61,629 nt of DNA from Candidatus Poribacteria bacterium (lineage in GTDB: Bacteria; Poribacteria; WGA-4E; WGA-3G). Of the stretch, positions 1,001-60,975 are shown one piece after another. The first letter of the stretch is position 1. Each line of letters starts with the position of its first letter. The translations under genes and the position numbers were made by a program. The stretch covers positions 104,268 through 165,896 of the forward strand of contig VXMD01000031.1 of assembly GCA_009841255.1 (NCBI GenBank), written 5' to 3'. The notes beneath the pieces were generated by a model that was given only the letters and a program-made list of their open reading frames with translations, was not told where the DNA came from and ran no database searches.

Positions 1001-1213
1001 TCGTCAGTTATCGGTTATCAGTTTTTTTCAGTTAAGAGGGTACCTTCACACAGGACCCCTTTTGGTAGAGCATCAAACCCCGTAGCCTGCAACAATACGC
1101 AGAAACACTTTCTTCGCATTGGATTTCAGCGTTCGCAAAAACACGCAGGCGGATATACGGAAATGAACGCCATAGATACAAACGACCTGTTCGAACCGCA
1201 AGGTAAAATTAAA
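997..1213. repeat. Intergenic repeat block: heptamer tract plus degenerate copy of the CTTGCGG-end element
   Basis: Directly after the permease stop the DNA reads as degenerate heptamers (TCAGTTATCGGTTATCAG). It is followed by fragments also present at 20.0-20.3 kb: CGTAGCCTGCAACA, GATATACGGAAA, and a terminal ACCGCAAGGTAAAATTAAA at about 1195-1213. The block ends inside the 3' end of the Omp85 gene. No gene is seen in it. Confidence 0.75.
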
Positions 1214-4200: not shown

Positions 4201-4499
4201 AGTATATTGAGTTGTTCTGTGGTTTCTTCCACAGGCGTGGTGCCAATGTAGTACTCTATTTTGGCAATCTGTTTTTGATTGGGTGCATCCAATTCCTGCG
4301 CGCCTACAGATTGCACGAAAAAGCAGCAGAGCAATACAATAGCAATCAGTATATTAGTTGTCAGTAAAGAAGTTTCCAGTCGCCAGTGAAGAATTCGCCA
4401 GTAACTGGTAACTGGTAACTGGTAACTGGTAACTGGTAACTGACAACTATTAAAACCGCCCCTTGAATTCAATGTCAATCCCGTGTTCCCTTTTTTCAT
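1209..4499 (-). CDS. Omp85-family outer-membrane assembly protein with about seven POTRA domains (BamA/TamA-like)
   Basis: From the N-terminus: a hydrophobic signal segment ending VQSVGAQE, about seven successive POTRA-like units filling roughly residues 60-750, then a 16-strand-type beta barrel. The barrel carries the loop-6 motif TTVRGYAERSLGP about 105 residues from the end and closes with a terminal Phe (RLGSTF), the usual beta-signal. At about 1,096 residues it is longer than BamA (about 800, five POTRA) or TamA (three POTRA). It lies just downstream of the tamB-like gene and is probably co-transcribed, so it may serve as TamA, BamA or both. The start is uncertain: the ATG at 4499 overlaps tamB by 50 bases and puts a stretch translated from the heptamer repeat (LPVTSYQLPVTSY) before the signal core. 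An ATA at 4352-4350 directly precedes an ideal signal peptide. Confidence 0.87.
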   Translation of the reverse strand: MKKGNTGLTLNSRGGFNSCQLPVTSYQLPVTSYWRILHWRLETSLLTTNILIAIVLLCCFFVQSVGAQELDAPNQKQIAKIEYYIGTTPVEETTEQLNILRNQTVVYVGDVLSRYAIGQSIKALYATQQYSQIQVYTQDRSGSLVLTYHLTPFAHIEQIVLSGIPENEVKNAIERTIRSRTGEKYVPTIAKADGQRIREVCQTYGYFDAQVRVPDALTEAGALTYQITVGDASTIKELQFQDNAILSDNTLKEVCNFSRDFPIYNKSAVDSDVLSMLALYHKSNYPTATITTIFIPETGILQFHVNEGKEVRINFFSDAGELPLSLQDAFREDIVSLINTTASSIWERRIKSYFKAEGYHDTTVDEEILDASSIRLTINPGTRYVVKGITFSGNRAFSEAQLKREITMKPIGGFLRNLQADIARLLFQREQRRFFYEPKLDTDIHRLKILYGKAGYPNVLITTRLDKQNPNNRRIGEVVIHLTVIEEHKEMIHRCDISGNTALGTATLLKRLQRELPLPQPNASLARKAYGDAILKAYHEIGYIDAVVSNAYILETVAPVFQVTGNFSGPLAEGNLPPKIRTEFERHNLTLTGVGIAAYIGNRWSLQDIEGNPRYTLIQKTPDVPLAGFQTSPAESLPSVPHLEVYEHGVLHLTVETEGEQVVFGTFYFQGDTDVVKQHVLQREVAHLEEKLWTSEKLNSALQNLYGSGLFRSVQYERLAQSTRGTGSAQASEVMNAAVLRPRKINDVLIQVEKQKPRTYSVSSGYSFAEGFRGTLGLTDSNFLFNRNIRGRARARLGWRDELGYLFDATLTEPWLIGRTRGSLQVLAKKLEVDDNVRALQGSFILSRNVFESHHLDLRYSYRDLDQPVPPMQSLPAVRVGLPNPYGQSPFSTTVSSVRLSWTYDNRERYLNPTGGMLNDLTVEYAGGFLQGEISFIKTTTDTRYYQQLIGGLVLATGVRFGITTGLRSNRRAELISFERFWAGGGTTVRGYAERSLGPRDSTGIHRGDVQFIFNTELRFPIYWMVRGAFFFDAGNVWGSLADINTTQPLPTSVGAGLYFDLGALTAGVDYAIPLVSTPGALDPTRAFHVRLGSTF
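4374..4452. repeat. Heptamer tract between tamB and the Omp85 gene
   Basis: About six near-perfect AACTGGT heptamers in tandem, read on the plus strand, running from the Omp85 signal-peptide region to the tamB stop. It ends CTGACAACTATT, so the minus-strand tamB stop TAA is followed at once by TAG TTGTCAG. The same TAGTTGTC/TAGTTATC edge abuts other stop codons in this window. Confidence 0.9.
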
Positions 4500-7400: not shown

Positions 7401-10400
7401 GGTTAAGGTTGTCAGTTGTCGGTAAGAGGTTTTCGTTTAACAAATCCCTCTTTAACTGATAACCGTTAACCGAAGACCGATCACCACCCGTGCGTGGGAA
7501 CACGGCTTTTCCTTGGACACGATAGGGACCCTCTCCCACCTGTCCGTTTGCTTCCACCCTTTGCACACGAACGAATTCTGAATCGAAATGAATATCTACA
7601 CGAAGCCGATCCAGCGTAATAGCGGGAATATAAGAGACAACACGGATCGGACTCTGCTTGACTGTTTCAGCGTATAGTAGCACAAGCGGATCAGCGAGCG
7701 TACCGCCGATCTCCACGGACGCCTCTAAAATCCCAGTTATTCCGTTGCCGGAGCCAAGCGTATCAATTGCCTCCATCGGCAAGGTGGCGAGATCCAAAGT
7801 AATGGTATCGACGCGGAGATGTAACTCCGAATCGTTAACCGCTTCAGGGTGAACGTCAATATATCCTTCCAAGTTCACATCGTTCCCGAAGAGTTTGAAA
7901 TCACACCCCTCAAAACGCAGCGTCTCCTCCTGATATGTTATCACCCCACTCGCATCGGCAATATCAATAGCACCCGCATCTGTTCCCAATATGAGCGTCG
8001 GGATTGACCATTCTAATCGAATATTGGGTTGGATGGATGTCCCAGTCATTTTCACGTCATACCGAAGGGCACCGGTTTTCAGCGTGCCAAGCGGAAGTCC
8101 CAATGCCTCTTCAAAAGGGAACAGTGCGAACCCATCAGATACGGCATGTAGGTTCATCGTCTCACTTCTGGCATCCAAAGTTCCCGTCAACTCAAGAAAC
8201 GCGACTTCGTCTTCAGATGTCCGCAAGAAAAGCGCATCGATTGTCCATGTGTCGTCTTTGAGATGCAGGCGAATCGGTTCAGAATTTGTGAAGGGAACAG
8301 AGTGATCGGTTAAAGAGGAATCCGGTTCAACAGACCCACCTCTTAACTGGTCACTGTTAACGTTACCTATCAACTCGCTCTGATTAGATTTGTTTAAGGC
8401 ACGAGTTGATAGGTAAAACTGAGAACTATTCACAAGAATATCCACATCGTAGGGATAGACGTGTTGTTTCTGGGACTCGGTAGCTTCGTTCTCAGTCGAT
8501 GGTGCCAAGTCTGCCAACGTCCCATTAATTGACGCACGCCCGCTAGCGGTCCCCGTAACCGCCTCAAGCATTGGGTCTAATATGGGTAGGATCGGTGTAA
8601 TATCAAAACTTTCACTCTCCGCTGTGAACCGGTATGGGTTCCCCGTAGCCATGCTGATGTAACCCTGAATCTGGCTCGTCCCCTCGAAGCCGTGTCCATG
8701 GAAATCGTAGATATCGGGTTCACCGGTAGTATCCTTCCGTTCCGCAAACTTACCGAGCAGATAGACATCGCCGAGCAGATATTTTCTGCCGCGTTCGTTG
8801 TGCAAGAAGGTTAAGTCTGAAAAATCGAGTTCAACCTGAATATCCGGACGCGCCGGTTTTTTGAGCGTGCCAACAACCCGAACGTCAAATTGCCCTTCAA
8901 ACGGAAAATCGGGGAGGTTTGCCGCTTTCGCAATTTCTTCCAACTTGACAGGGGCGTCGCTTTCAAGGAGCAGATCATAGTCACCGTTGGCGGCGACTGC
9001 AACCTTAAATGTAATTTGCTGCCCGCGCGTCGTTATCTTGAAGTCTGGCACTGTGAAGTTGTAATCCTCAATCTCCAAAGGGAGCGTCAACGGATCCAAA
9101 TAGATACCCCACGCCACGCCTTCGGTAACACTGAAGGCGGCACGACCATCCAGATGGATGAGCGTTCCACTTAATTTTAGCTCACCTCTGATTTCACCCG
9201 TCACAGGATATTCGGCACCTAACAAGAGTTTCGGATAATGTTGGACGTAAACAGGATCAGCGACAACACTGATATCCGCAGGAAAATCATCTCTAACCTC
9301 CACAGTTCCGGTAATTCGCGTGCGACTCTCGTATTCGGTTTGAGTCGTTATCAGGCGTCCGTTTTTACCATCAACTCGTGCCTTAACACTTTTATCAATG
9401 TGCGAGTTGATGGTAAAAGGTGTCAGTAGGTTTTCGGAGTTTCCTTTCTCTTTAACTGATAACTGGTAACTGGTAACTGACGACTCTTCTATTGTATTCT
9501 TCGTCATCAATCCGTTTTCGATGAATACCCGTCCCTCATGATAGCGGAAATCGCTCGACAAAGCACCGATCGGAATGTCGTTGAAGGTCGCATTCGGGAT
9601 TTTCATAAACCCGGTCAGCGCGCCATCCGACAATTTCGCAGACAATTCCGCTGTTCCGCCGATATCCGTACTATTGGCAATTTTCATCAGGTCATCGAAA
9701 TCGATGCCTGTTGCGTGGATATTCAAGACGTCTTGTCGTTCAACCGGAAAGGGACCCGTGATATTAATCTGAGCTTCACCGAAGTTTCCGTCGATTTTCA
9801 ATTCACCTGATACTATTGTGCAATTGAGCGTTGAATCGTCAAGTTTAACCTCGTCAAGGGTTGTCCTCGTTAGGGTTATCTCGCTGTCGAGTTTGAGGCT
9901 TGAAATGTCCGTACTATTTCCACTGAGTTCTCCACGACTTGAGAGAAGTCCCTTGCTGTCCATAAGGTTTTCAGGCAGTTGCGTGAACAGTGACAGCAGG
10001 GGGATCAGTTGGATGTCTGTCGCATCCCACTTTCCGCGGTAGGCAATCGGATGGGTTGAGAGTTGTTGAAGGTGCGTTAGCAGATGACCTTCCAACGCGT
10101 TTTCGGACGTGATGCTTCCATCGCTGACCACAATACCATCGGCGACTTGGAAACTGAGCTCGTTTAATGTGAATATTGGGGTGGGTTCAGAGTTGAATTT
10201 CGCGTCAGCACGTAAGGCTGTCAACGCTATTTTGGGATTGTTCTCTCCTATGACAGCAGAAAACCTCGGTATTCCCACAGAGAACGTTCCTGCTAAAGCC
10301 GAATCTGTACCATCCACTATGAGCGTCGCGTCAACATCGCCTTCAAGTTCAATATCTTCGCCAAAAAACGGCTCTACATCTGCCAGGTTCAGGTTCACGT

Positions 10401-11151
10401 CAACCTCGCTGTTCCAAAACGGAACGGTGTCTTCGTAGGTCAATTCACCTCTAACCTCAACAGTGGAGTCACCAAATTCCAATCGAAGTTTATCTAATGT
10501 GCTACCGCTGACGGAGATCTGAAAATCGGCATCAAACGTGTCAATTGCCGTTTCAGCACCATTGACCCTGAAACCGCCGCTATTAATTGCAAATCTTCCA
10601 TCGTGCTCCCATGTGTTGAGAGGTCCCTCCACCCTAATGGTAACCCCATCAATCTGGACATCAAGGTTGTGCTGCGTGTCGGTGTAACCGATTGTTCCAT
10701 CAGTCAATTGGAACTCTTCAATAGCAAAATCGAATTGTGTGGCGTCTTGTCCGTCCTGTTTCGTAAAGATATGTGTCAGATTAAAGGCACCATCGGCGTT
10801 CCGGAGTGCGTGAATCTCCGCTTTATCCACCTGTAGTTCCTTCACTTCAAATTTCCCAGTGAGCACCCCTAACAGATTGTATTTGAGGACGACCTGACCC
10901 GTGGAAATTACGGGTTCGTTTTCCTTAGAAATCTCGACGCTTTTAACGCTGACGCTCCCTAAAATATTTCCCTCTATTTTACCGACGTTTGCCGTGTAGG
11001 TATCGTCTATCCGATTTTTCAGTTCGGTCTCAAGCCGTTCCTCCACCCAATCCAAGAAGGTCCTTGAGCGGATAAAGAAAAGCGTTCCACATAGCCCAAC
11101 AACGAGAAATATCCCAACGAAAATGGATATGATTCCGAGTCTTTTTCGCAT
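4450..11151 (-). CDS. tamB: TamB-like giant envelope protein (DUF490/AsmA-like)
   Basis: A 2,233-residue protein with one N-terminal membrane anchor (about residues 7-29), a long beta-rich repetitive middle of the AsmA/TamB type (many short units of the form LxLxGxLxxP), and a C-terminal TamB/DUF490 domain ending in IEFKGRF. TamB proteins bridge the periplasm as a hydrophobic groove for phospholipid transport and help outer-membrane protein assembly with an Omp85 partner; here the Omp85 gene follows directly. It is nearly twice the E. coli length (about 1,260). Three stretches, about residues 552-597, 906-951 and 1224-1273, are polar and unlike the rest, and correspond to inserted repeat DNA. 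The start codon follows AACCGCAAGG, a repeat-derived ribosome-binding site. Confidence 0.88.
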   Translation of the reverse strand: MRKRLGIISIFVGIFLVVGLCGTLFFIRSRTFLDWVEERLETELKNRIDDTYTANVGKIEGNILGSVSVKSVEISKENEPVISTGQVVLKYNLLGVLTGKFEVKELQVDKAEIHALRNADGAFNLTHIFTKQDGQDATQFDFAIEEFQLTDGTIGYTDTQHNLDVQIDGVTIRVEGPLNTWEHDGRFAINSGGFRVNGAETAIDTFDADFQISVSGSTLDKLRLEFGDSTVEVRGELTYEDTVPFWNSEVDVNLNLADVEPFFGEDIELEGDVDATLIVDGTDSALAGTFSVGIPRFSAVIGENNPKIALTALRADAKFNSEPTPIFTLNELSFQVADGIVVSDGSITSENALEGHLLTHLQQLSTHPIAYRGKWDATDIQLIPLLSLFTQLPENLMDSKGLLSSRGELSGNSTDISSLKLDSEITLTRTTLDEVKLDDSTLNCTIVSGELKIDGNFGEAQINITGPFPVERQDVLNIHATGIDFDDLMKIANSTDIGGTAELSAKLSDGALTGFMKIPNATFNDIPIGALSSDFRYHEGRVFIENGLMTKNTIEESSVTSYQLSVKEKGNSENLLTPFTINSHIDKSVKARVDGKNGRLITTQTEYESRTRITGTVEVRDDFPADISVVADPVYVQHYPKLLLGAEYPVTGEIRGELKLSGTLIHLDGRAAFSVTEGVAWGIYLDPLTLPLEIEDYNFTVPDFKITTRGQQITFKVAVAANGDYDLLLESDAPVKLEEIAKAANLPDFPFEGQFDVRVVGTLKKPARPDIQVELDFSDLTFLHNERGRKYLLGDVYLLGKFAERKDTTGEPDIYDFHGHGFEGTSQIQGYISMATGNPYRFTAESESFDITPILPILDPMLEAVTGTASGRASINGTLADLAPSTENEATESQKQHVYPYDVDILVNSSQFYLSTRALNKSNQSELIGNVNSDQLRGGSVEPDSSLTDHSVPFTNSEPIRLHLKDDTWTIDALFLRTSEDEVAFLELTGTLDARSETMNLHAVSDGFALFPFEEALGLPLGTLKTGALRYDVKMTGTSIQPNIRLEWSIPTLILGTDAGAIDIADASGVITYQEETLRFEGCDFKLFGNDVNLEGYIDVHPEAVNDSELHLRVDTITLDLATLPMEAIDTLGSGNGITGILEASVEIGGTLADPLVLLYAETVKQSPIRVVSYIPAITLDRLRVDIHFDSEFVRVQRVEANGQVGEGPYRVQGKAVFPRTGGDRSSVNGYQLKRDLLNENLLPTTDNLNHRLDSDTRQQSTSQWLKLKTDNYFEIDVSASQIEIGDYGFASGYVKFSGTGLDPQQMTVIGEVSELELDGYDFRLVNSAPLRFRSDPVGTTEAAEPLAVHIPLELTSPMVTAAMEVNIAGTFIAPEIGIAWHGTLNEKEWTGEIEYRDERINVTGIELKNREGTLTFAGVIPFNLAFEAMDISERFIAEPLIDVRLRGSELPLHFFPGIETLFSEAEGTVDIDLEIQGTSQSPYVVGNVFVEAPQLHLKDFQGFPFQDMQLHLSARENLIDFTAFRFDIGDGTCKLEQGQFVLDGLMPKHLILQGLRLERFPLGSAVRPALPSDMSEAVEGYITATLKTLTVPFDSFLVPGESAPFPQVREIPSLTDLVSVSNATLSIDKVRLAFKAMDRYYDFQRLQPTLIVLSDGTLVLTETFTLKNRDEFSVKQTFTEEDTKPDGLLGDERTLSAKTTLSIDAESRWSVNGAFDGALRFKNFDVSVITDKWPAPYRVTGALSGSLQMSGTSEDPKITVRRHENEPAELYLHDVPIDLRWRIRYQNGKWEITEKRYVEVQFGGNQLTFSWRMPYKFALIPFLTALQQSPENVWTDFQRRPMYGTLDISVNDLTVLPSVVPGLSAATGTSEVHVKLTGTIETPQVDGGVLFNNIGFKLPEAGLRVEAAGGNIKLSEKGANIRLEGTLNDGGFLVSGDITAPPDRRIWEKPPTLNVSMGLTSTVFEQPEQYRIELSSTAFGLRGELLRPHLTGELHIRGGYYQQNWENVRDWLTGVSVKETELVLDYPILRDLHLDGIDIDIPDNFRVLSSITGPTDIEIACAGKLFGPLRQPVFSGNVSVLRGKIGIPPQTFEFIEGSTISNQSTVSFDPELNIFLRTPNRIRGVLPRDGSTIDLQVYAAVTGTLSNPNFILSAPPETTTEVLSHDDIIDFLLRNAALSGALGGFTFSFHRPLDEEARYISAEYPLGKNVSIKIETNEKREHGIDIEFKGRF
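7331..7480. repeat. In-frame repeat insertion A in tamB, with 24-nt-loop palindrome
   Basis: Heptamers (AGTTATCAGTTTTCAG) lead into an inverted repeat: arm AACCATTGACTCG (7355-7367), a 24-nt loop (7368-7391, beginning TGCTTTGC) and arm CGAGTCGATGGTT (7392-7404), all paired if one G-T pair is allowed. It is followed by an AAGAGG...CCTCTT module also found at 43985 and by more heptamers. The reading frame of tamB stays open through it. Confidence 0.85.
8298..8432. repeat. In-frame repeat insertion C in tamB, with 24-nt-loop palindrome
   Basis: The heptamer tract TTAACTGGTCACTGTTAAC precedes a perfect 15-bp inverted repeat: TTACCTATCAACTCG (8363-8377) and CGAGTTGATAGGTAA (8402-8416), around a 24-nt loop. 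The loop is in the opposite orientation to copies A, B and D. The tract closes with GAGAACTATTC. It is translated in frame. Confidence 0.87.
9360..9495. repeat. In-frame repeat insertion D in tamB, with 24-nt-loop palindrome
   Basis: A perfect 16-bp inverted repeat, TTTTACCATCAACTCG (9363-9378) and CGAGTTGATGGTAAAA (9403-9418), surrounds a 24-nt loop beginning TGCCTTAA. Four heptamers (TAACTGATAACTGGTAACTG) follow. The tamB frame continues. Confidence 0.88.
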
Positions 11152-11157
11152 TTTTTT

Positions 11158-11334
11158 ACCGTTCCTTGCGGTTAAAGCATGTGGATTGAGCTTTCACGGT
11201 TTTTCTCGCGTTCCAATCTGTCTGTATTTCCATCAGGCCCGGTAGGTGCGGTTTGTAACCGCACCGGGCAGCCGTTAGAACTATCACAGTCCCCTTTAAC
11301 TGATAACCGATAACTGAAAACTGATAACTATCCC
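11158..11334. repeat. tlyA-tamB intergenic repeats (CTTGCGG end, REP palindrome, heptamers)
   Basis: Three kinds of repeat fill the whole gap. Next to tamB is the end CCGTTCCTTGCGGTT. At 11238-11268 there is a palindrome, GGTAGGTGCGGTTTG and its complement. From 11283 there are heptamers (TAACTGATAACCGATAACTG) reaching the tlyA stop, which again reads TAG TTATCAG on the minus strand. No independent gene is seen. Confidence 0.85.
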
Positions 11335-15310: not shown

Positions 15311-17164
15311 CTACTGTAGCATCGCTTGAGCCGTGCGGACAACAGCATCGGCATCGCACTGACACAGCGCATAGAGATGCTGAACATCGCCGTGTTCAAC
15401 AAATTCATCTGGAATACCGAGATTTCTGACGTGTACGTCTTTGAGACCTGCTGCAGCGAGTGCCTCTAAGACAGCACTCCCGAAACCGCCCATTATCACG
15501 CCATCTTCAATCGTTATTACCTTACCGATCCGTTCCGCAAGCGGCAGAATCGTCGCGGTGTCCAGCGGCTTGACAAACCGTGCGTTAATAACCGCCGCTG
15601 AGATTCCAGAATCCGCTAACGTTTGCGCCGCTTCAAGCGCAGGATAGACGCGGTTGCCGATACCAATCACAAGCACGTCCTCACCCTCTCTGACGATTTC
15701 ACTTTTTCCAATCGGGAGTACCTGCGGTTCCGCCGCCATTTTCACACCGACACCAGTGCCGCGCGGGTAACGGAACGCAATCGGACCCTCTTGATATGAT
15801 ACAGCCGTCTTTACCATAGACTGGAGTTCGTTCTCATCTTTGGGTGCCATGACAACCATGTTTGGAATAGAGCGGAGGAATGCGAAATCGAAAACACCGT
15901 GATGTGTTGGACCGTCCGCGCCCACAAGCCCTGCTCTGTCCAATGCAAAAACAACGGGAAGGTTTTGGATGCACACGTCGTGTAGCACTTGATCGTAACT
16001 TCGTTGAAGGAAAGTAGAATAGATAGCCGCAACGGGACGCATGCCTTGGGTCGCAAGTCCACCCGCAAATGTAACGGCGCACTGTTCTGCCAAACCAATG
16101 TCAAAGCATCGACTCGGAAATGCGTTGGCAAACTTATCGAGCCCCGTACCCCCAGGCATTGCTGCCGTAACACCGACGATCCGCGCATCGCGTTTCGCTA
16201 ATTCAATCAACGTCCGGCTGAAGACTTCCGTATAGGCGGGTGTTTCTGGCTTCGGTTTGGTCGTCTTACCCGTTTTCAGATTGAACGGACCACTAACACT
16301 ATAGAACCCCACAGGATCCTCTTCCGCTGGCGTATACCCACGACCTTTTTCGGTTACCACATGCAGTAGAATAGGACCAGAGAGGTTGCGGATGCCTGTC
16401 AAAACAGGTATCAGTGCCTCTAAATCGTTTCCGTCGAGCGGACCGAAATAGCGGAACCCGAATTCCTCAAACAGTGTGCCCGGTTTCAAGGATGCCTCAA
16501 TCTTCCGTGCGATCTGCTTGGCATCTTCTGAAATCATGTTCATCAACTCCTTCGCACCCGAGCGGAGGAAATTGTACTGCGGCGAACTCGTGAGTTTGTG
16601 AAAATGTTTAGAGAACGCCCCGACAGTCGCTGAAATCGACATATTGTTGTCGTTGAGAATGACGGTCATATCGTTTCTAAAGTCACCCGCGGCGTTCAAC
16701 GCTTCAAACGCCATGCCGCCTGTTAACCCACCATCTCCAATGACAGCAACCACTTTGTAATGCTCATTGATGAGATCTCTCGCAGTGGCAATCCCCAACG
16801 CCGCCGCGATGGAAGTACTGGAGTGCCCCGCCCCAAAAACGTCATATTCACTCTCGGCTCTACTGAGGAATCCACTGATACCCCCACTCTGCCGGAGCGT
16901 TGGAAAGGATTCTCGCCTACCCGTGAGCAATTTATGCGGATACGCTTGATGTCCAATGTCCCAGATGACTTTGTCGCGCGGTGTATCATATACTTTGTGC
17001 AACGCTATTGCGAGTTCAATAGTCCCGAAGTTTGGAGCGAAATGCCCTGGATGCTCAGAGAGCACTGCCAACAGATAAGCGCGCATCTCTTCAGCAAGCC
17101 CCTTGAGTTCATCGAGTTCAAGTTTTTTCAAATCTGTTGGGTTGTTAATCTTTTCTAAGAACAT
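15311..17164 (-). CDS. dxs: 1-Deoxy-D-xylulose-5-phosphate synthase
   Basis: 617 residues, full length for DXS. It carries the thiamine-diphosphate motif GDGGLTGGMAFEALNAAGD with NDNNMSIS (about residues 145-180), an HxGHQAYPHKLLTGR-like stretch near residue 70, and the central transketolase domain with DIGLAEQCAVTFAGGLA and the GLVGADGPTHHG motif. It condenses pyruvate and glyceraldehyde-3-phosphate, the first step of the MEP isoprenoid route; dxr for the second step is at 46.5 kb. It is last in the minus-strand run ymdB-xseA-xseB-dxs. The ATG follows a copy of the ACCGCAAGGTAAATTAAA repeat end, which provides AAGG as ribosome-binding site. Confidence 0.97.
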   Translation of the reverse strand: MFLEKINNPTDLKKLELDELKGLAEEMRAYLLAVLSEHPGHFAPNFGTIELAIALHKVYDTPRDKVIWDIGHQAYPHKLLTGRRESFPTLRQSGGISGFLSRAESEYDVFGAGHSSTSIAAALGIATARDLINEHYKVVAVIGDGGLTGGMAFEALNAAGDFRNDMTVILNDNNMSISATVGAFSKHFHKLTSSPQYNFLRSGAKELMNMISEDAKQIARKIEASLKPGTLFEEFGFRYFGPLDGNDLEALIPVLTGIRNLSGPILLHVVTEKGRGYTPAEEDPVGFYSVSGPFNLKTGKTTKPKPETPAYTEVFSRTLIELAKRDARIVGVTAAMPGGTGLDKFANAFPSRCFDIGLAEQCAVTFAGGLATQGMRPVAAIYSTFLQRSYDQVLHDVCIQNLPVVFALDRAGLVGADGPTHHGVFDFAFLRSIPNMVVMAPKDENELQSMVKTAVSYQEGPIAFRYPRGTGVGVKMAAEPQVLPIGKSEIVREGEDVLVIGIGNRVYPALEAAQTLADSGISAAVINARFVKPLDTATILPLAERIGKVITIEDGVIMGGFGSAVLEALAAAGLKDVHVRNLGIPDEFVEHGDVQHLYALCQCDADAVVRTAQAMLQ

Positions 17165-17337
17165 ATTTTAATTTACCTTGCGGTTCGATCAGGGAGGTTT
17201 GATAAATAAAGGGTTTCCGCTCCGTATATCCGCCCTCCGCTACGCTTACGGACTACACGGTTTGGACTGATGTTTATAAAGACTCTTTAACTGATAACTG
17301 ATAACTGAAAGTGAGCGTACGAACGCTCTGATAACTA
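17165..17337. repeat. xseB-dxs intergenic repeats
   Basis: The gap is repeat material. It begins with the CCTTGCGGTTCGATCAGG end abutting the dxs start, continues with CGTATATCCGCCC fragments shared with 20.08 kb, and ends with heptamers (TAACTGATAACTGATAACTG) reaching the xseB stop (TAG followed by TAGTTATC on the minus strand). Confidence 0.85.
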
Positions 17338-17691: not shown

Positions 17692-18933
17692 CTACTCCTC
17701 CGACAAAAGCTCCTCAACGCGACATGCCAGATGTCCATCGGCGAGTTGAACCTCGACCCTATCGCCTACCGACACCTGTTCAGCCGAGGAGAGGACTTCC
17801 CCATCCGTTTTCCGACTGATGCTATATCCGCGCTGCAATGTAGCCAACGGACTCAGCGCGTTTAAACGTTGTGCAAGGGTTCGGAAGTCGCGTTCACGAT
17901 TAGAAAGACCCCGCGTCATAGCATTCCGACACATAGTTTCTAAGTCGTCTATCCTCTGGGAACGTTGATAAAGAGCGTCCTTTCTTCGTGTCGGTGAGAG
18001 TCGGGTCTCAAGGTCTTGGAGGCGTGTTGTGTGCGCATCAAATCGGGCATTTATCATTCCCCGCAGCCACGCGTCATATCCGTCTAATCGGTCAAGAAGT
18101 TCAGTCTGATCTGGAACGATATGTTCAATTGCCGCCGAAGGTGTCGGTGCGCGATGATCCGCCACCAAATCAGAGATCGTGGTATCCGTCTCATGCCCAA
18201 CCGCTGACACGACCGGAATCACAGAAGCGAAAATTGCACGCGCAACTATCTCCTCGTTGAACGCCCAGAGATCCTCAATCGAACCGCCACCGCGACCGAC
18301 GATTAACACATCTATATCCTCCCGTTGGTTCATTGCCCGGATCGCCTGAACAATCTCCTCTGCCGCATCATCACCTTGTACACGGCTCGGATGTAGCAAC
18401 ACCTCGGCTAACGGGTATCGCTTGCGGAGCTGTTGGCAGATGTCCTGAAACGCCGCGCCTGTCGCCGATGTTACCACACCGATTTTCTTCGGATATTTGG
18501 GTAACGGTTTTTTATGTGCAGGATCAAACAAACCCTCTACAGTAAGCCGCTCCTGCAATTCCTCAAAAGCCCGTTGCAACGCACCGACTCCCAATGGTTT
18601 CACCGCTCTCACCGTAATCTGGTATATCCCCTGAGGCCCATAGACCCCAATTTTTCCTTGTACCTGCACCTCTTCACCGTGGCGAATCAAAGCGCGAAAG
18701 CGAGCCGCGTTATTCTGCCAAATTATACATTTGATTTGATTTGTCTCATCTTTAAGCGTGAAATAGATGCGCCCCGAACCATGGTGTGTGCAATTTGATA
18801 TCTGTCCACGCACATACACATTTTGCAGATGCGGCTGTTGTTCTATCAGACGCTTCAGCAGATCCGTTATTTCACTAACACTATGGACAGTTCTTGTTGC
18901 CATCGGCATTTCCAATTGCATAATAGTCTTCAC
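17692..18933 (-). CDS. xseA: Exodeoxyribonuclease VII large subunit
   Basis: 413 residues. The N-terminal OB-fold (about residues 15-110) has VYVRGQISNCTHHGSGRIYF; the catalytic domain has GVVTSATGAAFQDI, IVGRGGGSIEDLWAFNEE and SAVGHETDTTISDLVAD. These are the conserved blocks of XseA, the catalytic subunit of exonuclease VII. A coiled-coil region follows (residues about 290-350). The start may be at 18933, or at one of the Met codons a few residues in (MQLEMPMATRTVHSV); the OB-fold begins soon after all of them. Confidence 0.95.
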   Translation of the reverse strand: MKTIMQLEMPMATRTVHSVSEITDLLKRLIEQQPHLQNVYVRGQISNCTHHGSGRIYFTLKDETNQIKCIIWQNNAARFRALIRHGEEVQVQGKIGVYGPQGIYQITVRAVKPLGVGALQRAFEELQERLTVEGLFDPAHKKPLPKYPKKIGVVTSATGAAFQDICQQLRKRYPLAEVLLHPSRVQGDDAAEEIVQAIRAMNQREDIDVLIVGRGGGSIEDLWAFNEEIVARAIFASVIPVVSAVGHETDTTISDLVADHRAPTPSAAIEHIVPDQTELLDRLDGYDAWLRGMINARFDAHTTRLQDLETRLSPTRRKDALYQRSQRIDDLETMCRNAMTRGLSNRERDFRTLAQRLNALSPLATLQRGYSISRKTDGEVLSSAEQVSVGDRVEVQLADGHLACRVEELLSEE

Positions 18934-18936
18934 TTT

Positions 18937-19250
18937 TTAATTATATCTTGTGGTTCGGTCAGGTAGATGAAGATATTTTCGTTTCTTTACGTTACCCGCC
19001 CACGTGTTTTTGCTTGGGGTGTTTTTGCTTGGGTATTTCTGCGTATTGCTTGGGGTTTTTGCTTGGGCGTTTCTGCGTATTTCTGCGTGTTTCTGCGTGT
19101 TTCTGCGTATTGTTGCATCTTTTGTAGCAGAGTCTCCTATTAGGAAATCCTGCCTCTTCACCCTTTCTTATCAAGGCACATCACAGTCAATCACATAAAT
19201 CACAGTCGCTCTTATAACTGAAAACTGACAACTGGTAACTGATAACTAAT
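18937..19250. repeat. ymdB-xseA intergenic region: tandem GTTTTTGCTTGGG / TTTCTGCGTRT array
   Basis: Some 310 bases of repeats and no gene. At 18943-18975 lies a diverged CTTGTGGTTCGGTCAGGT end. At 19003-19120 short units TGTTTTTGCTTGGG and TTTCTGCGTATTG/TTTCTGCGTG alternate in tandem. From 19205 there are heptamers (AACTGAAAACTGACAACTGG) reaching the ymdB stop. The array carries many accidental open frames. Confidence 0.85.
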
Positions 19251-20027
19251 TTAATACTGATGCTGCACCGGCACGATGCTCACTGCCAGTCCTGTTTCTT
19301 CGTCAAGTTCTATCTCAGCACCACAAAGCTTGACGTTACCTTTAGCGACAACAAAACGCGCAGGCATCATCGTCAAAAACCGCCCAAGCGAAATATCTAT
19401 CTGCGTGCCGATCACCGAATCGTAGGGGCCCGTCATACCGACATCTGTAATGTAAGCCGTGCCTTGTGGAAGAACACGCGCATCCGCCGTCTGAACGTGC
19501 GTGTGCGTGCCAAGCACTGCACCCACTCTGCCGTCTGCGTGCCAGCCCATCGCAATTTTTTCAGAGGTCGCTTCCGCATGAAAATCAAGGAGAATATAAG
19601 GTGTCACCGCTTTCACTTCAGGTAAAATCGCATCAAGCGCGTGAAACGGATTGGTATAAGCATTCATGAAAAGCTGACCCGCGAGATTAATGACACCGAG
19701 TTGCATTTGTCCGTCATCGGAGGTAACAAGGGTTACACCGCGTCCAGGAACATCCGTCGGATAATTCGCAGGGCGTATCAACTGCGGTGTTGTCTCTATA
19801 AAGCCGAAAATCTCGTGCTTATCCCAAACATGGTTCCCTGTTGTAATCGCCGAGACCCCGGATGCCAGCAGTTGATCAACAATGTCAAACGTTAACCCTT
19901 TGCCACCCGCCGTGTTCTCTCCGTTCGCAACGATGAAATCGTAGTTGTGCCGGTATTCTTCCAAAAACCGGACTGTTGCTGATCTGCCGGGTCTGCCAAC
20001 AATATCCCCGATAAACAATATTTTCAT
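19251..20027 (-). CDS. ymdB: YmdB-family metallophosphoesterase (cyclic-nucleotide phosphodiesterase type)
   Basis: 258 residues, the usual length of the YmdB/TIGR00282 family. Metal-binding motifs are all present: FIGDIVGRPGR at the N-terminus, ANGENTAGGKGLT, TTGNHVWDKHEI, DFHAEATSEK and VLGTHTHVQTADARVLPQGT. In Bacillus the enzyme hydrolyses 2',3'-cyclic nucleotides. It lies between pyrE and xseA on the minus strand. Both its start and the preceding pyrE stop lie in the ends of one mobile-looking repeat (20030-20266). Confidence 0.93.
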   Translation of the reverse strand: MKILFIGDIVGRPGRSATVRFLEEYRHNYDFIVANGENTAGGKGLTFDIVDQLLASGVSAITTGNHVWDKHEIFGFIETTPQLIRPANYPTDVPGRGVTLVTSDDGQMQLGVINLAGQLFMNAYTNPFHALDAILPEVKAVTPYILLDFHAEATSEKIAMGWHADGRVGAVLGTHTHVQTADARVLPQGTAYITDVGMTGPYDSVIGTQIDISLGRFLTMMPARFVVAKGNVKLCGAEIELDEETGLAVSIVPVQHQY

Positions 20028-20029
20028 AT

Positions 20030-20266
20030 TTTTAATGTTCCTTGCGGTTCGGTCAGGTCGGTTTCAAGTTTAACGTTCCTTTCCGTATATCCGCCCTCCA
20101 TTTCATTACGGGCTATGCGCCCTTTAAACAAACCCGTAGCCTGCAACATCGGCGCAGGGTGTTTTTGCTTGGGTATTTCTGCGTATTGCTGGGGTGTTTC
20201 TTCAGATATACGGAAAGACCCTTTATGCATCAAATCCACCTGACCGAACCGCAAGGTAAAATTAAA
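20030..20266. mobile_element. MITE-like element with inverted CCTTGCGGTTCGGTCAGGT ends
   Basis: About 235 bases bounded by inverted ends: CCTTGCGGTTCGGTCAGGT on the left (about 20040-20058) and its complement ACCTGACCGAACCGCAAGG on the right (about 20234-20252), both flanked by TTTAAT-like sequence. Inside are a second inverted pair around CCGTATATC and the GTGTTTTTGCTTGGG unit. It fills the pyrE-ymdB gap: the right end contains the pyrE stop codon (TAA in TTTAATTTT), and the left end gives ymdB its AAGG ribosome-binding site. It encodes no protein. Related ends occur near 1.2, 11.2, 17.2, 18.9 and 44.8 kb. Confidence 0.75.
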
Positions 20267-20774
20267 GATCCGCAAGCGTAAAAACGGATGCGAACGAACA
20301 ACCGAGCGCATTAATTTTCGTCGCACCACCTGCCTGCCGATCAATAGCAGCAACGACGTGCTCCACCCTATACCCCTCTGCACGGATCTGCTCAATAGAT
20401 GTACAGACCTGTCCCGCAGTCGTAATCACATCTTCTATGACGACAAGTGTACTGCCTTCCGCAACGCCACCTTCAATGAGGTTACACGTGCCGTACGTTT
20501 TCGCTTCCTTCCGAACATAGAAACACGGCAATCCCGTTTGCAACGAGAGCGCAGTTGCGAGCGGGATACCCCCTAATTCTAAACCTGCCAACCCGTCGCA
20601 TTCAGAGGGCAGTAATTTTGCCATCTCCTCAGCAATCGCAGCGAGCAGTGCGGGATCGCTCTCGAACCGGTATTTGTCCCAATAAAAGTTGCTGATGTTC
20701 CCAGAGCGGAGTACGAATTCTCCTGTAAGATAGGAAACCGCGCGTATCTGTTCTGCAAGTTCTGTTTTTGTCAT
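20262..20774 (-). CDS. pyrE: Orotate phosphoribosyltransferase
   Basis: 170 residues. It has the PyrE features VLRSGNISNFYWDKYRFES, the LGGIPLATALS block, FYVRKEAKTYGT and the PRPP-binding loop VVIEDVITTAGQV. The enzyme joins orotate and PRPP to give OMP in pyrimidine synthesis. It is at the short end of the family. The last codons and stop lie inside the MITE-like end (20262-20266), so the C-terminal few residues may be altered from the ancestral protein. The start has no Shine-Dalgarno; heptamers run up to an A-rich ATAAAAATATG. Confidence 0.94.
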   Translation of the reverse strand: MTKTELAEQIRAVSYLTGEFVLRSGNISNFYWDKYRFESDPALLAAIAEEMAKLLPSECDGLAGLELGGIPLATALSLQTGLPCFYVRKEAKTYGTCNLIEGGVAEGSTLVVIEDVITTAGQVCTSIEQIRAEGYRVEHVVAAIDRQAGGATKINALGCSFASVFTLADL

Positions 20775-20775
20775 A

Positions 20776-20992
20776 TTTTTATAGTTATCAGTTATCGGTT
20801 GTCAGTTGTCGGAAGAATGGTTGTCGGTGTGTCCCGCTTCGCTCCATTTTCGGTTATAGGTACGTTCGCTGCGCTCACTTTAAGTTATTGGTTATTGGTT
20901 ATAAGTTAAGAGTCTCTCGCTAAACGATAACCTCTTAACTTACAACCTAAAGGTTTTTCGGAGAAAAACCGAACCGATAACTGACAACTATT
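20776..20992. repeat. selD-pyrE intergenic heptamer tract
   Basis: About 215 bases of heptamer variants (AGTTATCAGTTATCGG, GGTTATTGGTTATAAGTTAAG) with an AAGAG...CTCTT module and the hairpin AAGGTTTTTCGGAGAAAAACCG. It ends with GACAACTATT at the selD stop, which reads TAA TAG TTGTC. Confidence 0.88.
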
Positions 20993-36640: not shown

Positions 36641-36772
36641 CTCCGTTTGTAGGAGGGAACTCCGAATCCCGACCTCCGTTTGTAGGAGGGATCTCCGATT
36701 TCCGACCTCCGTTTGTAGGAGGGAACTCCGATTTCCGACCTCCGTTTGTAGGAGGGATCTCCGAATCCCGAC
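36641..36772. repeat. Four tandem 33-bp REP units upstream of the heparinase-like gene
   Basis: Units begin at 36641, 36674, 36707 and 36740, each CTCCGTTTGTAGGAGGGA followed by ACTCCGA or TCTCCGA variants and CCGAC. They are adjacent with no spacers. Single copies of the core GTAGGAGGGA...TCCGATTCCCGAC occur at 17555, 39531 and 56740. Confidence 0.92.
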
Positions 36773-36856
36773 CAATGTAAACAGTTCAGGACATAATAGC
36801 AACATAGCAGGATTTGTCAAGACTTTGCTATTTCTCTGTATTTTGACAATAGACAA

Positions 36857-43949: not shown

Positions 43950-44075
43950 GTAAACAGTTTTCAGTTATCAGTTAAAGTAAAGACGGATTTGTTAAACGAA
44001 AACCTCTTTAACTGATAACTGAAAACTGAAAGGATTTTTGAAAAAAATCTGAACCGAAAACCACTACTAAAAAAG
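43950..44075. repeat. rpsB-tsf intergenic repeat
   Basis: Heptamers (AGTTTTCAGTTATCAGTTA), the module GATTTGTTAAACGAAAACC(TCTT), more heptamers and a hairpin AAAGGATTTTTGAAAAAAATC. The module is the exact complement of 7426-7448 in tamB. It is followed by the tsf ribosome-binding site AAAGGAGG. Confidence 0.88.
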
Positions 44076-44699: not shown

Positions 44700-44832
44700 T
44701 CTTAATGTGAACCAGAACTGTAGCCTGTAAGCGAAGCGGAAGGGTTTTTGCTTGGGCGTTTCTCCTAGCTCTACGGGGATTAACCCCTAAATCCAAGACC
44801 CACCTGACCGAACCGCAAGGAATGATTAAAAA
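44700..44832. repeat. tsf-frr intergenic element with CCGCAAGG end
   Basis: The right end CCACCTGACCGAACCGCAAGG (44801-44821) belongs to the MITE-like family and gives frr its AAGG site. The middle has GTAGCCTGTAAGCG and the GTTTTTGCTTGGGCGTTTCT unit also seen at 19.0, 20.2, 22.1 and 47.7 kb. It is 5'-degraded compared with the 20.0 kb copy. Confidence 0.8.
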
Positions 44833-45420
44833 ATGCAACAGCAGATTCTTCAACAGGCGGAGTCCCGGATGAAGAAGACAATCGAAGCAACAGCGACGAA
44901 ATTGTCACACGTCCAAACAGGGCGTGCTACACCGGCACTCTTAGATCAGGTTAGCGTTACTTATTACGGCAGCAAAAGTCCCCTGAGTCAGGTCGGCACG
45001 ATTACTACCCCTGAACCGCGGCTGCTCGTCATTCAACCCTGGGACAAAACGCTAATTACAGAAATTGAGAAAGCGATCGCACACTCAGATTTGGGACTCT
45101 CAACGAGTAATGACGGAAACGTTATCCGAATCCAAATCCCCGAACTCACATTGGAACGCAGGACCGAGCTAACAAAGGTCGTACGCAAGCTTGCCGAAGA
45201 GGGTAAGGTCGCAATTCGGAATATCCGACGTGACGCCAATGAAGCCGTTAAAAAAACCGACGGTGGTGATGGGGGTAGCGGCGGTAAAAGCAGAGGGCGG
45301 GGTGGCGATAGAAAGCGTGGAAAAGCGAGCGCGGATCCCGTTCAGCAGCTTACCGATAAGTACATCGACCAGATTAACGAACTGACGGAGACGAAAGAAT
45401 CCGAATTATTAGAAACTTGA
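44833..45420 (+). CDS. frr: Ribosome recycling factor
   Basis: 195 residues. The core is clear: RMKKTIEATATKLSHVQTGRA, ATPALLDQVSVTYYGSKSPLSQ, LLVIQPWDKTLITEIEKAI and VRKLAEEGKVAIRNIRRDAN near the end. In place of the usual short turn (KKLEKDGEISEDE-like) between the last two long helices there is a Gly/Arg/Lys-rich insert of about 30 residues (around 138-167, GGDGGSGGK...RGKASADP). The C-terminal QQLTDKYIDQINELTETKE is normal. It splits post-termination ribosomes with EF-G. Confidence 0.96.
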   Translation: MQQQILQQAESRMKKTIEATATKLSHVQTGRATPALLDQVSVTYYGSKSPLSQVGTITTPEPRLLVIQPWDKTLITEIEKAIAHSDLGLSTSNDGNVIRIQIPELTLERRTELTKVVRKLAEEGKVAIRNIRRDANEAVKKTDGGDGGSGGKSRGRGGDRKRGKASADPVQQLTDKYIDQINELTETKESELLET

Positions 45421-59062: not shown

Positions 59063-59833
59063 CTATTGCCTAAAATGGTTCGTTGCCTTAAGATGCCCCC
59101 AGGTTGTACCGAGTTTACCTGCAGGATCGACTGCCAAATATGCCTGAAATCCCTCCATCAGCACCTTGATATCGTCCTGTTCGAGTGCCGAGTGGAAAAT
59201 GGCGACTTCATCCATAGCGCCGGGAAAGAAGTTACCGTTTGGATCCCAGACACCGCATCCACCGATATTGACGTTAAAGGCAGATGTGCCATGATTTGCC
59301 CAGCCACCTTTTTTCTCGACGTATTCACCATCAATATAGGTATGCACGTATTCCGTCGTAGCGACACACCCGACGTGATGCCATTTACCATCATCGTGTT
59401 TGTATTCCCAAGGCTTCTGTGTGCCACCAGCGGTAGGTGTCCAGAGATTGACAGAGTTTGGGTTAATAAACCCGAATTCGGGCGCGTCGTTCTGTCCAAC
59501 GAGTCCAGTTCGGTTCGCGTTGACATCACCGGTCTGCACCCAAGTGATGATGGTGAACTCTTCGAGGTTGTCAAGGAGTTTCGCTCCCGTTTTGACGCAG
59601 CTGGCTTTTCCATCAAATTTCAGTGCCGTGCCGAACTTACCCTCCACCCATTCAGGGGATTTCTCTAAGTCCGCGTCGTTTCCTCCAGGAGAGAGATCGG
59701 TAGCGACGCCGCCTTTGCCTTCATCGAATAACCATATCCCGACCGCTGTTTCGAGGTCGATTTCGGCGGTGCTCACATGAACAGCCATGAGGCTGAAACA
59801 CACCGCGCCGAGCGTTAATAACACCTTTTTCAT
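59063..59833 (-). CDS. Secreted LamG-domain protein, copy 1
   Basis: 256 residues from ATG 59833, which has GGGAGG before it; a longer open frame upstream is not needed. The signal peptide is KKVLLTLGAVCFSLMAVHVS-TAE. One LamG domain follows: AVGIWLFDEGKGGVATDLSP, FDGKASCVKTGAKLLDNL, FTIITWVQTGD, DGKWHHVGCVATTEYVHTYI and GAMDEVAIFHSALEQDDIK. It ends AVDPAGKLGTTWGHLKATNH, the motif shared with the proteins at 26.1 and 60.1 kb. It probably binds sugar or protein outside the cell. Confidence 0.9.
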   Translation of the reverse strand: MKKVLLTLGAVCFSLMAVHVSTAEIDLETAVGIWLFDEGKGGVATDLSPGGNDADLEKSPEWVEGKFGTALKFDGKASCVKTGAKLLDNLEEFTIITWVQTGDVNANRTGLVGQNDAPEFGFINPNSVNLWTPTAGGTQKPWEYKHDDGKWHHVGCVATTEYVHTYIDGEYVEKKGGWANHGTSAFNVNIGGCGVWDPNGNFFPGAMDEVAIFHSALEQDDIKVLMEGFQAYLAVDPAGKLGTTWGHLKATNHFRQ

Positions 59834-60060
59834 CGTTACTTCCTCCCAATATTTAGCGTGAGCGTGCTTGAAACGCACATCTATAGTGTTGAAATTCATC
59901 TTTAAGTTACATTATGATACCCTATGCAGTATAAAGTCGCAAGAGAAAATGAGGCGGTGGGTGTCGGAAGAGTTCAACTTGTAGATTGGAGGGTACATAG
60001 ACGCGCCTGGACATCTCGCCACGCGCGTCTATAGGTGTTAGTTAGAAAAGGATGTGATTA

Positions 60061-60828
60061 TTACCTGATATGCTGCGTTGCTTTAAGATGTCCCCAAGTT
60101 GTACCCAGTTTGTCTTTCGGATCAACTGCCAAATAATTTACATATCCTTTGTCCATTAATTCTTGGATATCTTCCTGTTCGAGTGCCGAATGGAAAATCA
60201 TGACTTCGTCCATGAGACCCGGGAAAAAGTTTCCACCTGGATCCCAGACACCGCATCCACCGATGTTAACGTCAAAGGGAGCTGCGCCGTGATTCGCCCA
60301 CTTCCCCTTCTGCTCAACGTAATCACCATCGATATACGTATGGACGTAATCCTGTGTAGCGACACACCCGACGTGATGCCATTTACCATCACCATGTTTG
60401 TGTTTTCAAGGATTATTCGTCAAGCCAGCCGACGGGGTCCAGAGGCTAAGTTCATTCGTCGTAATAAAACCGAACTCGGGTGCATTGTTCTGTCCCACGA
60501 GTCCAGTACGGCCAGGCGGCGGGGACGTGGTTTGTATCCATGAAAGAATAGTGAATTCTTCGAGAGCCTCAAGAAGTTTCGCTCCCGTCTTGACACAACC
60601 GGCTTTTCCATCAAATTCGAGTGCTTTACCGAATTTTCCATCCACCCATTTGGATTTGACGACTTCGCCATCGTTTCCTTCACCCGATATGTCTTCAGCG
60701 ACTCCCCCTTTGCCTTCATCAAAGAGCCAGATACCGACGGCTGTCGAAAAATCAATCTCAGCGGTACTGATATGAACAGTGATGAGACTGAGACACATCA
60801 CACACAGTGTTAATAATACTTTTTTCAT
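60061..60828 (-). pseudogene. Secreted LamG-domain protein, copy 2, interrupted by an in-frame TGA
   Basis: The gene aligns end to end with the LamG protein at 59.1 kb, beginning with the signal peptide MKKVLLTLCVMCLSLITVHI. The first 140 codons end at TGA (60408-60406) where copy 1 has Trp (PWEYKHDD against P-stop-KHKHGD). The frame resumes at once with the same homology and closes TTWGHLKATQHIR and TAA at 60063-60061. So there is one nonsense change and no frameshift. It may be a pseudogene, a read-through gene or a sequencing error. Since selD here shows that UGA-selenocysteine exists, Sec insertion was considered, but it would replace a Trp and is unlikely. Confidence 0.85.
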
Positions 60829-60975
60829 AGTCTTCCTTCTTAGGTTTACCGAGAGCGTGCTTAAAACACGCACCTACGGGATTGAAATTCATTCTTATAC
60901 TTCTAATTATAATAGCGTATATAACACGAAATTGCAACAAAAAACCTGATGTAGACGCAGTTTGATGCATATCCG

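Follow-up and report, generated by a model that had tools for sequence, protein, structure and literature searches.

Ends of a genus-specific repeat as candidate ribosome-binding sites and stop codons in Candidatus Poribacteria

The terminus of a short, apparently mobile interspersed repeat, specific to one genus of Poribacteria, has probably become a ribosome-binding site (RBS) or a stop codon where copies landed beside genes, with working ends subsequently being kept by selection. The end of this repeat apparently serves as the RBS of around 230 genes, including the core genes frr and dxs; if true, this would represent repeat-derived translation signals on a large scale, and the existence of both filled and unfilled orthologous sites allows a comparison of translation with and without the element. 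The repeat was studied starting from a 61,629 nt stretch (hereafter 'the window') of the 5.73 Mb genome of a Candidatus Poribacteria sponge symbiont, in which gene names were checked with Pfam.

In the window, a two-ended palindromic element of 236 bp (20031-20266) occupies the entire intergenic region between a pyrE-like phosphoribosyltransferase gene (20262-20774, minus strand; PF00156) and ymdB (19251-20027, minus strand; PF13277). Its inverted ends have the sequence TTTTTAATNATN-CCTTGCGG, and an 18-mer representing the end, CCTTGCGGTTCGGTCAGG, matches exactly at 20040-20057 on the plus strand and at 20239-20256 on the minus strand. The initial annotation had proposed that the element possesses inverted ends, that one of these includes the pyrE stop codon and that the other places CGCAAGG before the ymdB start, all of which proved correct. 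The arms (20030-20091 and 20205-20266) are 62 nt each and 77% complementary, with a predicted fold of -92.6 kcal/mol, relative to a mean of -58.05 kcal/mol for shuffled sequences (z = -8.1). The start-facing end (20031-20057, minus strand), of the type termed A below, reads CCTGACCGAACCGCAAGG-AACATTAAA in the mRNA sense and is followed by the ymdB ATG at 20027, the terminus in outward sense being GAACCGCAAGG-AACATTAAAAAT-ATG. The CCTTGCGG or CCGCAAGG motif of this end lies 12 nt before the start codon and includes the AAGG (20040-20043, minus strand) proposed as the Shine-Dalgarno (SD) sequence of ymdB, which is complementary to CCUU of the 16S rRNA 3' end. The stop-facing end, likewise of type A (20239-20266, minus strand), has the outer terminus TTTAATTTTACC, within which lies the TAA stop codon of pyrE (minus strand, 20264-20262).

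Six matches to the 18-mer, with up to three mismatches, were found in the window, against 0.03 expected. The same end had been suggested to precede dxs, frr, tamB and probably xseA. This holds for the first two, where type A ends are found 11 nt before the dxs ATG at 17164 (17165-17193, minus strand) and 12 nt before the frr ATG at 44833 (44803-44832, plus strand), and also for xseA, where the type A end is degenerate (TCTTGTGG; 18934-18963, minus strand) and stands 12 nt before a GTG at 18933. At tamB only the terminus is shared: CCGCAAGG occurs 12 nt before the ATG at 11151 without its GAACCGA context (11152-11175, minus strand), and the end has CCTTGCGG but not the inner TTCGGTCAGG, making it a second end type, B. 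A further type A end (1186-1213, minus strand) provides the stop codon (TAA, 1211-1209) of an Omp85 gene ending at 1209, the second gene in the window with an element-derived stop, which was absent from the initial annotation.

Across the genome, 272 copies of the 18-mer were found with at most two mismatches, against none for the reversed control. Logos of copies not at an ATG locate the terminus at TTTTTAATNATN-CCTTGCGG, information stepping up from 0.35 bits at position -12 to 1.35 bits at position -11, with little consensus in the flanks beyond. Inward of this terminus, copies fall into three types: A, which has TTCGGTCAGG; B; and a third type characterised by CGCAAGGCG. No protein encoded by the element was identified, the repeat being short, non-coding and present in high copy number. 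In a survey of 78 genomes, including that of the window, the end was detected in all 38 genus genomes examined, at between one and 277 copies each, and in none of eight from other genera of the family; eight of 32 more distant genomes contained it once each, which is about the control level. Rfam gave no matches in the window, and no viral contig matched the repeat.

The arrangement of the ends varies between copies. Only 18 left-right pairs were present among the 249 ends in 1.117 Mb of sequence, 15 of which span 180-510 bp, meaning that most copies do not display two intact inverted ends; many resemble a single half-element. Tandem copies of the end with a 21 nt period occur in L034 (at 9350), L045 (at 17485), L053, L055, L069 and L090, putting two CCGCAAGG motifs in succession before one gene (at a distance of 33 = 12 + 21 nt). 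In L064 (7880-8030), L079 (10225-10374) and L080 (10410-10582), single-ended units form head-to-tail arrays that the assembly breaks with runs of N.

The distribution of the repeat relative to genes was analysed using a codon-usage gene caller written for this work, with minimum scores of 18 for distances to starts and stops, the placement of end types and facing counts, and of 30 for 8-mer enrichment and spacing. Outside the window, 60 stretches of the genome were used, 1,055,765 bases or 18% of it in total; as most had been selected because they surround an exact copy, copy densities derived from them are inflated. Genome-wide, the pattern CGCAAGG-N4/5-TTAAAA-N1/2-ATG occurs 227 times and its control never, so that the placement of CGCAAGG before starts, as anticipated in the initial annotation, is indeed enriched. 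Among 194 start-facing ends in 1.117 Mb, a count that, like that for stops, takes in loosely matched ends and some within genes, CCTTGCGG is exactly 12 nt from the start in 66, forming a sharp peak, together with a smaller group of eight at 33 nt, which mostly reflects a tandemly repeated end of 21 nt. Of the 59 stop-facing ends, 18 have a stop codon at precisely 5 nt, namely the TAA of the end itself. No 8-mer is more strongly enriched before ATG than CCGCAAGG itself, found 74 times against 0.97 expected in 603 ATG genes; spacing in the same analysis was 12 nt in 57 of 75 cases, 11 nt in six and 13 nt in three. In contiguous sets of genes, on contigs picked partly for their copies, 29 of 248 have an RBS of the element type (6/43 in the window, 17/146 in C18 and 6/59 in C26). 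Intergenic regions between co-directional genes contain 165 start-facing and 32 stop-facing ends, an approximately five to one excess (p = 9e-23 against the 1:1 ratio expected if ends are equal), which we infer to be due to selection, although oriented insertion could produce it instead.

An enrichment with no counterpart in controls, exact spacing, replaced leaders and the start-facing excess together give good support to the idea that translation signals come ready-made with this repeat family. The AAGG of the end is probably used by ribosomes. In three members of the genus, the 16S rRNA 3' end is GGATCACCTCCTTTCT, the UCCUU of which can pair with AAGG or, better, AAGGA; the 16S gene of this genome is only partial. 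This pairing amounts to only four or five base pairs, and the 12 nt spacing exceeds the 7-11 nt typical of native AAGG sequences; genes without an element end use an ordinary AGGA or GGAG at around 5-10 nt. CCTT, the complement of the motif, survives unaltered in 50 of the 52 ends that have an ATG at 11-13 nt, as against 62 of the 97 others (p = 6e-6), a group containing truncated copies. Start-facing ends also continue AAGG with an A more often (100 of 175) than stop-facing ends do (11 of 39; p = 0.0013). The predicted accessibility of the SD is no worse in element leaders (median 0.50, n = 65) than in native ones (median 0.40, n = 238). At orthologous ends, compared in groups excluding L111, L252 and L254, conservation restricted to AAGG was not found; instead, it extends over all 17-19 nt of the terminus, making another role or gene conversion possible. 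Some ends at an ATG carry no outward AAGG.

The comparison with strains lacking copies, which had been put forward as a check, showed that the element varies in presence and absence at the orthologous sites of ymdB, dxs, frr and tamB, and that relatives lacking it have different leaders at all four, mostly with their own SD. At frr, an element end abuts the ATG in five of 30 loci, including the window itself (the others being L218, L221, L222 and L224), leaders elsewhere typically being AGGGAAAAATCAG-ATG or TTAAGGGAAAAATCAG-ATG. Seven further frr loci of the 30 have an independent insertion 5' of a retained native SD, and because of this position the end is not the RBS in these cases. The dxs gene has the element in five of 30 loci, again counting the window's own; its leader in relatives lacking the element is mostly AGGATTCATAAC-ATG or a similar sequence, or AAATAGGATTCATAAC-ATG. 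For tamB, the start of which is unresolved in several loci, the element is likewise present in five of 30, own locus included, with only around 45 nt left at the start in L247 and L250; the alternative leader is TATAGGAAAACGAAG-ATG. Among 48 pyrE-ymdB loci from relatives, seven have the RBS end (L092, L095, L100, L101, L102, L106 and L111) and L136 has the stop-side end only. An example of a ymdB leader without the element is AAGTGATAAGGGGAAA-ATG, while L091 and L093, which also lack it, have heptamer-type repeats up to ATTAAATATG and no obvious SD. The 3' end of pyrE changes from GAAGGAGAATAG without the element to GAAGGATTTTAA with it; in L102 the stop is instead a TGA just before the element, and in L095, where 35 nt separate the pyrE stop from the ymdB ATG, both the TAA and GCAAGG are element-derived.

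These observations are most readily accounted for by a short, high-copy, non-coding repeat that would have spread across intergenic regions bearing a terminus, outward CCGCAAGG-NATN-ATTAAAAA, that would amount to a near-complete translation-initiation region, combining a putative weak SD (AAGG or AAGGA) with an A-rich spacer. A copy arriving flush with a start codon would displace the earlier leader and its end would become the RBS; at the 3' end of a gene, its T-TAA would become the stop codon. Selection would then retain the working ends while the remainder, usually including the other end, decays. The order of these events is inferred. It is highly improbable that CCGCAAGG-N4-ATTAAAAA is simply the ordinary native RBS of the lineage, which the repeat captured or inserted beside. 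CCGCAAGG does head the 8-mers found before ATG in the stretches sampled, as such a reading would predict, but, when read by eye, almost every copy that has the ATTAAA spacer runs inward into type A or B; the same four genes have different leaders in relatives lacking the element; and the AGGA or GGAG of genes without it is of the usual kind.

Target-site specificity is a more plausible competitor, though a tentative one: oriented insertion directly upstream of starts would make the 12 nt spacing a product of insertion chemistry rather than of selection for an SD. The spacing is far sharper than that of native SDs and off their optimum, types A and B are both found at starts, as are four of 23 ends of the third type, which lacks an outward AAGG, and many copies seem to be single half-elements. 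Against this, 27 type A and 17 type B ends are classed as far from any gene edge, 18 ends fall exactly on stops, the second insertion at the frr site is 5' of the native SD, and copies not at an ATG have few flanking positions in common outside the terminus. An unlikely further possibility, based on folding predictions, is a switch coupling termination to initiation: the arm beyond the stop would sequester, by pairing, the SD of the following gene until termination at the element's TAA brought in a ribosome to release it. With both arms present, the openness of the SD is predicted to be 0.001-0.033 in all four two-ended copies that have both a stop and a start, rising to 0.43-0.69 once 13 nt past the stop are blocked, and the SD is predicted to be hidden (0.001-0.108) in six of seven pyrE-ymdB orthologues. 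Any two inverted ends would nevertheless pair in this way as a trivial consequence, and the SD in the L095 remnant is partly open (0.48). As the element stop is also present in just four of 83 genes with an element RBS in co-directional pairs, coupling cannot be the general role. A further, speculative proposal, which we consider unlikely, is that the repeat is a non-autonomous, mobile 5' leader: insertion would set its SD-bearing terminus one nucleotide upstream of starts, the family would spread by RBS replacement, and two-ended copies would constitute a stop-coupled switch.

There is only partial support for the original suggestion that the repeat is a miniature inverted-repeat transposable element (MITE). 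The existence of polymorphic sites and of two-ended palindromic copies is in keeping with it; however, most copies are single-ended, with the inversion of the ends extending to only the minority of copies that form pairs, and no transposase with these ends was present in the part of the genome examined. The TTAA at both ends of the element reads as part of the conserved terminus, and since the flanks are too diverged for an empty site to be recognised, a target duplication is not resolvable. A parent transposon sharing the ends, sought as the initial annotation had advised, was not found in approximately 20% of the genome. Eleven left-right pairs of 0.7-3.6 kb enclose ordinary genes, except for a fragment of what we take to be an IS630-like transposase with its own TATAGT ends; this gene, in L052 (9400-10235), is apparently frameshifted and adjoins two repeat copies. 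L214 represents the same transposase locus, where the ends are two copies beside the IS. Loci encoding DDE_Tnp_1 and DDE_5 have no such ends, and none of the six Y1_Tnp loci in the genome has end A within around 1.5 kb.

Promoters, hairpins and stop codons are all known contributions of dispersed repeats. REP elements, which are mobilised by RAYT transposases, have a GTAG-flanked imperfect hairpin in the unit, as in the repeat described here; they differ in that the six Y1 transposase loci of this genome lack end A. In the open-access literature, no paper was found on this repeat in Poribacteria, on a MITE supplying SD sequences or on any repeat family doing so at this scale. The nearest precedents are BOX for stop codons (PMC3049150) and TAACTGA repeats for start codons (PMC4679880). 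BOX repeats of Streptococcus pneumoniae, likened here by description and not by sequence, are also high-copy, intergenic and non-autonomous and are reported to encode the stop codon that terminates 36 CDSs, but the passages concerned report no SD for downstream genes, and some BOX-made ORFs lack good SD candidates (PMC3049150). MITEAba12, Correia/NEMIS and RUP resemble the Poribacteria repeat in being short and multi-copy with inverted ends, stops in many frames and occasional gene fusions; the passages concerned describe no RBS role for them (PMC6382973, PMC2229807), whereas for the Poribacteria repeat no parent transposon was found and duplication is unproven. The TAACTGA heptamer, described in Beggiatoaceae in an account whose text does not mention Poribacteria, similarly forms dispersed repeats just upstream of starts, over the expected RBS, and makes stops, but consists of direct repeats with little SD character (PMC4679880), unlike the AAGG-containing element.

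Other repeats are present in the window. TAACTGA-like heptamer repeats, a family separate from the element, occupy many intergenic regions (4388-4451, 9453-9488, 11297-11332, 17278-17311, 19215-19250, 20779-20810 and 43999-44032); one set lies immediately beside the pyrE ATG, where no obvious SD is seen, and another runs over the stop codon of the gene that ends at 11328. Tandem units of the TAGGAGGGAACTCCGATTTCCGAC type at 36641-36805 may be the REP family of the Y1 transposase in L180, as the same kind of sequence adjoins the Y1_Tnp gene there. Finally, a diverged duplication of around 1 kb, with 72-78% identity in pieces, lies at 59154-60831 and overlaps two minus-strand ORFs.
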